DNA of 64,000 nucleotides from contig JAQCEJ010000003.1 in assembly GCA_027618475.1 (NCBI GenBank), positions 1 through 64,000 of the forward strand, in the 5' to 3' direction. Made by a program: the position numbers and the translations under genes. Numbering within the stretch: the stretch's first letter is position 1; each line of letters starts with the position of its first letter. Below, one piece after another: positions 2,460-6,355 of the stretch. A model generated the notes under the pieces. It was not told where the DNA came from. It saw only the letters and a list, made by a program, of their open reading frames with translations, and searched no databases. Source of the stretch: Planctomycetota bacterium (GTDB lineage: Bacteria; Planctomycetota; Planctomycetia; Planctomycetales; Planctomycetaceae).

Positions 2460-3902
<1,443 letters not shown>

Positions 3903-4057
3903 ATCTGTCAAAGGTTGTAATTCGTCCCCGGTCGCTCGCGTCTGGAATTTCCTGTCGGTAGGTTGCACCGAGGAATTATCTCCCGTTTCCTCTTGCCGGC
4001 ATTGCATTTACATCAACACTCCCACATGCACGACCAGGCTTGTGTATTAAAATGCGC

Positions 4058-4103
4058 GAGGCAAAATAATACATTATGTATCATTTTGCCTCTTTTTTCT
4101 TTC
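4058..4103 (+). terminator. Near-perfect palindromic intrinsic terminator after metY
   Basis: Arms GAGGCAAAATAATACAT and its complement (17 nt each, one mismatch) are separated by one base and followed by T6CT3. It lies about 155 nt past the metY stop, so it probably ends that transcript. Confidence 0.8.
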
Positions 4104-4303: not shown

Positions 4304-4320
4304 TGGCACGGATGCTGCAT
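4304..4320 (+). promoter_or_regulatory. Candidate sigma-54 promoter
   Basis: TGGCACG-N4-CTGCA places GG at -24 and GC at -12 with exactly 10 nt between them, as in the sigma-54 consensus TGGCACG-N4-TTGCW (one mismatch). The predicted start is near 4330, just before two hairpins. The activator and its upstream sites were not identified. Confidence 0.6.
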
Positions 4321-4329
4321 TGTAATACC

Positions 4330-4416
4330 TGCAATGATGGCAAGCGTTGGCCCGCACTTGTCATCGCCAGACACGAAGGCGTTCCCGGTAACTTGTTATC
4401 GGGAACGCTTTCTGTC
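4330..4416 (+). ncRNA. Putative sigma-54-dependent small RNA
   Basis: Between the sigma-54-like promoter and a T-rich tract lie two hairpins. Hairpin one pairs GATGGCAAG (4336-4344) with CTTGTCATC (4357-4365) over 9 bp with one G-U. Hairpin two pairs GCGTTCCCG (4379-4387) with CGGGAACGC (4400-4408), can extend inward through GTAAC/GTTAT, and is followed by TTTCTGTCTTTT. No convincing ORF fits. Hairpin, linker and terminator in under 90 nt is the usual layout of a trans-acting sRNA; targets are unknown. Confidence 0.55.
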
Positions 4417-4420
4417 TTTT
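4379..4420 (+). terminator. Intrinsic terminator of the putative sRNA
   Basis: A 9-bp GC-rich stem (GCGTTCCCG/CGGGAACGC), extendable to about 13 bp with a CTTG loop, is followed by TTTCTGTCTTTT. It forms the 3' end of the proposed small RNA. Confidence 0.7.
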
Positions 4421-4475
4421 ATCGAGTTCGATTTTGAACGATCGAAATCAACTCCATTCTTATCCCGATCCAAAA

Positions 4476-4514
4476 AAACACCCGCTTGAAGTACCTGACT
4501 TCAAGCGGGTGTTT
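4476..4514 (-). terminator. Strong intrinsic terminator (possibly bidirectional)
   Basis: A perfect 17-bp stem (AAACACCCGCTTGAAGT with its complement) and a 5-nt loop. Read on the minus strand it is followed by a run of seven Ts, so it fits the 48-codon gene ending 28 nt away. Confidence 0.85.
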
Positions 4515-4542
4515 ATCGTTTATGCGTGACAAGATCTGCGAG

Positions 4543-4689
4543 CTATCCCGTCACGCCAGACAGGCCGGGCGGTACATCCATAATCGAACCCTCTTGAATA
4601 CGAGGACGGGAAAAAGAGACCTGAACCAGGCGTCGCCGGGGGACGATCATCCCCCGCTCTGACACCCTTTTCGGCGGACTTAGCAGCAT
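4543..4689 (-). CDS. Small 48-aa protein, function unknown
   Basis: The ORF track lists a longer 67-codon frame, but the inner ATG at 4689 has a strong AGGAGG Shine-Dalgarno 5 nt upstream, giving a 48-aa basic product with no predicted membrane segment and no cysteine. A strong minus-strand terminator follows the stop, and a sigma-70-like promoter lies about 165 nt upstream, with two hairpins in the leader. These signals argue for a real gene although the protein is not recognised. It does not resemble a known toxin or regulator by eye. Confidence 0.55.
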   Translation of the reverse strand: MLLSPPKRVSERGMIVPRRRLVQVSFSRPRIQEGSIMDVPPGLSGVTG

Positions 4690-4991: not shown

Positions 4992-5041
4992 CGGCACTCA
5001 TCGTCACCGATCCGCGTCCCATTTTGCAGAAAGTCGAACCG

Positions 5042-6355
5042 ATGCCGTACTTCTCCGATATCGCTTCTGTCGTTTACGAAGGCCCCGACAGCAAGAATCC
5101 GCTCGCGTTCAAATATTATAATCCCGACGAACTGATCGAAGGGAAATCGATGCGCGAGCTGTTTCGCTTCAGCGTCTGTTACTGGCACACCTTCCGTGGC
5201 ACGGGGAGCGACCCGTTCGGAGCGGCCACCCTCCAGCGCCCCTGGGACGACGGCAGCGATTCGATCGACAACGCCAAAAAACGGGTCGACGTCGCCTTCG
5301 AGTTCATGCAGAAACTCGGCGTCGACTTCTATTGCTTTCACGATCGCGACGTCGCTCCGGAAGGCAAAACGCTCGCGCAGTCGAACAAAAATCTCGACGC
5401 CATCGTCAAACATTTGAAGAAATCGCAAAAATCGACCGGCATCAAACTGCTGTGGGGAACCGCGAATCTCTTTTCGCATCCCCGCTACATGCACGGTGCC
5501 GCCACGAGTTGCAATGCCGATGTCTTCGCGTACGCGGCGGCTCAGGTGAAACACGTGATGGAAGCAACCCACGACCTCGGCGGCGAGAACTACGTTTTCT
5601 GGGGGGGACGCGAAGGCTACATGAACCTCTACAACACCGACATGAAACGCGAACTCGACCATCTCGCCACCTTCATGCACATGGCCGTCGACCACGCCAA
5701 AAAAATCGGCTTCAAAGGACAGTTCCTCTTCGAACCTAAACCGAAAGAACCGACGAAACATCAGTACGACTTCGATGCGGCGGCCTGTTTGAATTTCATC
5801 CATCGCAACAAACTCGACGGACACGTAAAACTCAACATCGAAACGAACCACGCCACGCTCGCCGGCCACACGATGATGCACGAACTCGAATACGCCCGCA
5901 TTCACAACGCCCTCGGCAGCATCGACGCCAACACCGGCGACCTGCTGCTCGGCTGGGATACCGATCAGTTCCCCACCGACATCTATCTCACGACGCAGTG
6001 CATGCTGGTGATTCTCGAACAAAAGGGGTTAGCTCCCGGCGGCACCAACTTCGACGCGAAAGTCCGCCGTGAAAGTTTTGAACCGATCGATCTGTTTCAC
6101 GCCCACATCGGCGGGATGGATGCCTTCGCCCGAGGAGCCAGAATCGCCGCCGCGATCCGCAAGGATGGCGTGTTGAAGGACGTCGTCAAGCAGCGTTACG
6201 CCAGCTTCGACGAAGGGATCGGCAAGCAGATCGAAAAAGGGAAAGCGAGCCTCGCCGATTGCGAAGCCTACATGCTGAAAAACGGCAACCCCGCAGCCAA
6301 CACCAGCGGTCGGCAGGAGTTTCTTGAGAATGTGATTAACGATTATTTGCGGTGA
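5042..6355 (+). CDS. xylA: Xylose isomerase
   Basis: 437-aa TIM-barrel enzyme interconverting D-xylose and D-xylulose with divalent metals. Visible family marks are the catalytic-His segment FYCFHDRD, the signature VFWGGREGY and the metal/substrate signature [14 protein letters not shown]. The length matches the usual 436-440 aa. The ATG at 5042 gives the usual N-terminus; the track's TTG at 5024 is less likely. No xylulokinase or xylose transporter is adjacent, so it stands alone. Confidence 0.95.

Follow-up and report, generated by a model that had tools for sequence, protein, structure and literature searches.

CrcZ, CrcY and NrsZ of Pseudomonas are small RNAs (sRNAs) transcribed under the control of sigma-54 and an NtrC-type activator. 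Judged by description, they are longer RNAs, with multiple motifs or subject to processing, unlike the planctomycete sRNA reported here. The Qrr1-5 RNAs of Vibrio are intergenic and around 100 nt long, have a sigma-54 promoter and an intrinsic terminator, and occur in multiple copies in some genomes; upstream of their genes, near -90 to -130, lies the LuxO site TTGCAW3TGCAA (PMC11443567, PMC10162802). Planctomycetia are covered by a survey of the sigma-54 regulon from 2025, which leaves small RNAs unmentioned (PMC12316311), and in the literature on planctomycete sRNAs we found no relevant regulatory sRNA described from Planctomycetaceae.

The locus considered here lies in a 64,000-nt stretch of planctomycete DNA, referred to below as the window, between metY (O-acetylhomoserine sulfhydrylase; 2466-3902, + strand; TIGR01326, 689 bits) and xylA (xylose isomerase; 5024-6355, + strand; TIGR02630, 727 bits), both of which are separate from it. 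On the basis of the observations below we hypothesise, with a probability of roughly 0.8, that it encodes a stand-alone, trans-acting sRNA of a new family, which would depend on sigma-54 and an NtrC-type activator, and whose loop would act without Hfq.

The sequence TGGCACGGATGCTGCA at 4304-4319 (+ strand) is a GG-N10-GC box of the kind expected for a -24/-12 promoter recognised by sigma-54 (RpoN). On its own the box is weak evidence, because TGGCACN6TGC, which occurs once in the 64-kb window, is expected 0.46 times by chance; the case for a sigma-54 promoter is made by the comparative data. Counting 12 nt on from the -12 C places the start of transcription near 4330, and thus a predicted sRNA of about 90 nt at 4330-4422 (+ strand), which scores 80.1 bits (E = 2.3e-15) with covariance model R1. 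Its first part is a 9-bp hairpin (4336-4365, + strand) with a hexaloop UGGCCC at 4348-4353 and a C.A mismatch at 4345/4356, followed by a predicted intrinsic terminator with a 17-bp stem and a T-rich tail (4375-4422, + strand). The segment 4330-4416 folds at -44.9 kcal/mol, compared with -24.3 +/- 3.1 kcal/mol for shuffled controls (z = -6.6). The two hairpins of the original prediction are thus borne out, and their stems covary among relatives.

A DNA search of 150 genomes from the same GTDB family, Planctomycetaceae, gave matches in 36, centred on window positions 4339-4362, and 30 loci were fetched. A covariance model built from 21 of these carries out the search of relatives that had been proposed originally, and finds relatives in 114 of 170 Planctomycetaceae genomes, representing 49 of the 58 genera. 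Diverged members in genera g5, g43, g48 and g53 are added by a combined promoter-loop pattern search, and by the two methods together the family is present in about 53 genera. Among 294 genomes of the phylum, only two weak covariance-model matches fall outside Planctomycetaceae, both lacking the core. Pattern matches outside the family were rejected, being mostly coding-like and having no hairpin-terminator arrangement. Rfam 15 contains no matching family for the window, at gathering or relaxed thresholds. The best sub-threshold match is the Pseudomonas sRNA P11 (RF00625), whose model likewise has a sigma-54 box and a terminator; it reaches 24.4 bits, where the gathering cut-off is 70, and only the box and the terminator align, leaving the conserved hairpin unaligned. 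Comparative sequence evidence therefore indicates that this is a real and previously uncatalogued sRNA family, of an apparently sigma-54-dependent kind. The suggestion of a new sRNA in the metY-xylA gap stands as regards the RNA, the family being absent from Rfam 15, but the position is particular to this genome. The window's own genome has a second copy (G000:C139:8829-8738, minus strand), which has a variant loop and a sigma-54 box of its own, and genus g31 has tandem triplets, in which every unit has its own promoter and terminator.

It is the conservation of the promoter box that is most telling. GG-N10-GC is found at the same place in 97 of 103 distinct copies from the family, whereas each of the control spacings GG-Nk-GC (k = 6-9 or 11-15) is found in just 4-19 of them. 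The converse finding, hairpins retained and the GG/GC spacing lost, would have counted against the proposal, and is not the pattern seen. In the early sample the box lay 34-38 nt 5' of the core in all 30 fetched loci. When the 19-base core alone was searched for as an exact match in all GTDB species genomes, disregarding the promoter, the box was present in 42 of 44 matches on planctomycete contigs of the same family, and in none of 19 matches elsewhere. The gene rpoN was found in all 17 genomes tested, the window's own genome among them. Together with the spread over some 53 of 58 genera and the enhancer-like palindrome described below, this supports the earlier view of a sigma-54 promoter, for which an ATP-dependent activator would be needed, and of a stand-alone sRNA that ends at an intrinsic terminator.

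No good box is found in the copies of genus g29 or in L107, L145, L216 and L217, and that of L186 is degenerate. In both genomes of g29 there are two copies (L063, L068, L074, L078), with hairpin and terminator and no sigma-54 box; these genomes have RpoN, and a different promoter may have taken over in these copies. In L107 (493-511) and L145 (5394-5412) the boxless core hairpin is contained in a longer stem, and in L145 the 3' arm GCGGGCCA, preceding the T-tract, is exactly complementary to the loop UGGCCCGC. These two could be decoy or antagonist RNAs.

The hairpin was tested for covariation using a gap-free alignment anchored on the hexaloop. In register, 72.5% of positions pair, compared with about 37% after a slide of one position, and for pairs 6-13 from the loop the mutual information exceeds that of all 200 shuffles. 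The loop is closed by a U.G and a G-C pair, followed by the conserved C.A mismatch and then by the variable, covarying stem. The hexaloop and adjoining mismatch are near-invariant while the stems vary freely, and the loop variants GGAUUGGCCCGCAC, GUACUGGCCCGCAC and GUUCCGGCCCGUAC all retain YGGCCC. Nearly all of the 30 fetched loci have a terminator-like hairpin 3' of the core, and the terminator stem shows compensatory changes in relatives. It is worth adding that in many of the sRNA terminators (for example L028, L132 and L145) TGCGC or ATGCG tends to come after the T-tract. A similar sequence is found in the window (4513-4526) 3' of a terminator-like hairpin that is unrelated to the sRNA, and terminators of this bacterial family may share the feature generally.

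In the 290 nt before the box, word counting and de novo motif discovery by EM recovered gTGttGCAAAATGcaaCA, an upstream palindrome of the form TGTTGCA-N3-TGCAACA. Motifs trained on half of the sequence clusters locate sites in the other half (p ~1e-11 to 1e-13). A palindrome score of at least 10 is reached in 64 of 96 copies, compared with 0.4-0.7% of shuffled sequences. The palindrome lies mostly 100-160 nt 5' of the box, and is present both beside panB and in other contexts. It includes the Vibrio LuxO site, TTGCAW3TGCAA. For the family as a whole it is probably an enhancer-like activator site. In the window the sole good matches are two overlapping candidate sites at 4052-4098 (scores 9.3 and 9.1), which are imperfect. 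They are ambiguous, because they lie farther from the box than is typical (-100 to -160) and overlap an inverted repeat with a T-tail, at 4060-4090, that is probably also the terminator of metY. A regulon search by the palindrome alone, allowing 2 mismatches, gave no clear excess over the control. At one locus (L230/L401; G050:C5, about 680.5 kb), close to a GspE-like gene, the GG-N10-GC box CGGCACATGTGTGGCA lies 3' of a perfect GTGTTGCAAAATGCAACAC palindrome; there is no sRNA of the UGGCCC family at this locus, which may also belong to the regulon.

To look for the activator, the NtrC-type activators of ten genomes were placed in a tree. A gene for an activator with the architecture FHA-GAF-AAA+-HTH_8 (FHA-EBP) is directly 3' of the sRNA in g16, g38 and g49, and the same order is seen in two g5 genomes. 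Among the activators compared, it is the only NtrC-type protein ever found adjoining the sRNA, and this in four genera. FHA-EBP is universal in Planctomycetaceae, and correlating its presence with that of the sRNA is therefore uninformative, leaving adjacency as the one line of evidence. From gene order, FHA-EBP is the best candidate for the activator of the sRNA, with a chance of about one in two. The chances are also even that the same sRNA is served by a different NtrC-type protein, for instance an NtrC-like response regulator from group C or E: several NtrC-type groups are common to the genomes compared, and the sRNA copies adjoining FHA-EBP have the weaker palindromes, although none of these other groups was seen next to the sRNA.

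We propose that RNA polymerase with sigma-54 would bind the -24/-12 box, and that an NtrC-type AAA+ activator on the upstream TGTTGCA-N3-TGCAACA palindromes would loop over and fire the promoter in response to a particular condition; the product would be an RNA of about 90 nt that stops at its own terminator. Promoter prediction ties sigma-54 in Planctomycetia to chaperones, proteases, stress proteins and csrA (PMC12316311), and for this reason a stress response is a reasonable first candidate for the inducing condition. If the activator is FHA-EBP, it would couple the sRNA to Ser/Thr phosphorylation signalling.

The part of the RNA most likely to act is the loop. The UGGCCC(GC) hexaloop would be presented to other RNAs and pair through a short GC-rich seed, and would do so without Hfq (PF17209), which was found in none of 12 genomes tested, the control genomes being positive. 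Searches for targets gave little: across 14 genomes GTGCGGGCCAA, an 11-nt sequence complementary to the loop, shows no enrichment over the same word reversed, and in the window's own genome it returns the sRNA alone, while short loop complements show no excess near start codons, in what is a weak test covering only 323 genes. Seed pairing by the loop is our first choice as the most likely mechanism, and protein capture the second. According to the latter, the hexaloop and C.A mismatch would bind an RNA-binding protein, which is titrated or carried as by CrcZ or RsmZ. The near-invariance of loop and mismatch on changing stems, the lack of enriched complementary sites and the absence of Hfq would all suit such a role. 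On the other hand, there is a single motif per RNA, where titrating RNAs usually have several, the loop has no GGA (CsrA) motif, and there is no candidate protein; we consider it rather unlikely.

With regard to Qrr, the predicted planctomycete sRNA shares the features listed in the first paragraph, together with upstream sites of the TTGCAW3TGCAA type (PMC11443567, PMC10162802), imperfect in the window copy, and a copy beside a gene for an NtrC-type activator, as qrr1 is next to luxO. It differs in phylum, in its conserved segment, which is a UGGCCC hairpin loop, in the lack of Hfq (needed by Qrr RNAs) in the genomes tested, and in its candidate activator, an FHA-GAF protein in place of the receiver protein LuxO. 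The Rfam Qrr model gives no match in the window at the gathering threshold or at E values up to 10. The sRNA is therefore Qrr-like in promoter layout and yet not a Qrr, since there is no Rfam match, no Hfq and a different core. It would appear that a Qrr-type promoter layout has been paired with an unrelated RNA. A tentative extension, to which we give somewhat less than an even chance, is an Hfq-free, Qrr-like circuit beyond the Proteobacteria, in which an FHA activator reading phospho-threonine would act with sigma-54 to drive an sRNA family found in nearly all Planctomycetaceae, its near-invariant GC-rich hexaloop working either by capturing a protein or by loop-loop pairing. In any case, an sRNA that spans the family and comes with a defined promoter, an enhancer site, a candidate activator and a single conserved loop would offer a direct route into post-transcriptional control in planctomycetes, a phylum that has no recognisable Hfq.

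The genomic surroundings argue for a stand-alone gene. Relatives most often have the gene beside panB: about 30 copies adjoin a divergent panB, 15 are near a thioredoxin-reductase-like gene and the remainder are elsewhere. In g5, g16, g38 and g49 the sRNA does share its strand with the FHA-EBP gene and lies 14-320 nt 5' of it, as would be expected of a leader or attenuator acting on that gene. However, the neighbouring genes vary between genera in kind and strand, and in the window a bidirectional terminator-like hairpin (4476-4514) and 600 nt lie between the sRNA and xylA, and we regard a leader as very improbable. Finally, that the locus encodes a small protein is scarcely credible and was rejected: the frame AUGAUGGCAAGC... 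stays open through the RNA in the window and has a start codon in 49 of 102 copies, but the peptides and stops downstream are unrelated among copies, the core is near-invariant at every codon position, the stems covary, and in the window no Shine-Dalgarno site is evident in the stretch from +1 to the AUG.

Some further observations may be noted. On the minus strand of the window, a 48-aa frame (4543-4689) with a good Shine-Dalgarno site runs towards the same hairpin at 4476-4514; it has no relative among the 170 genomes of the family. A diverged copy of the sRNA (L391, G097) is located about 1 kb 5' of a gene with a GroEL-like start. Three other planctomycete families (f106, f103 and f108; L375, L376 and L382) have in common a different conserved stretch, TGGCAC...TGGCCCGCGGGGYCTCTG...TGGCACG.
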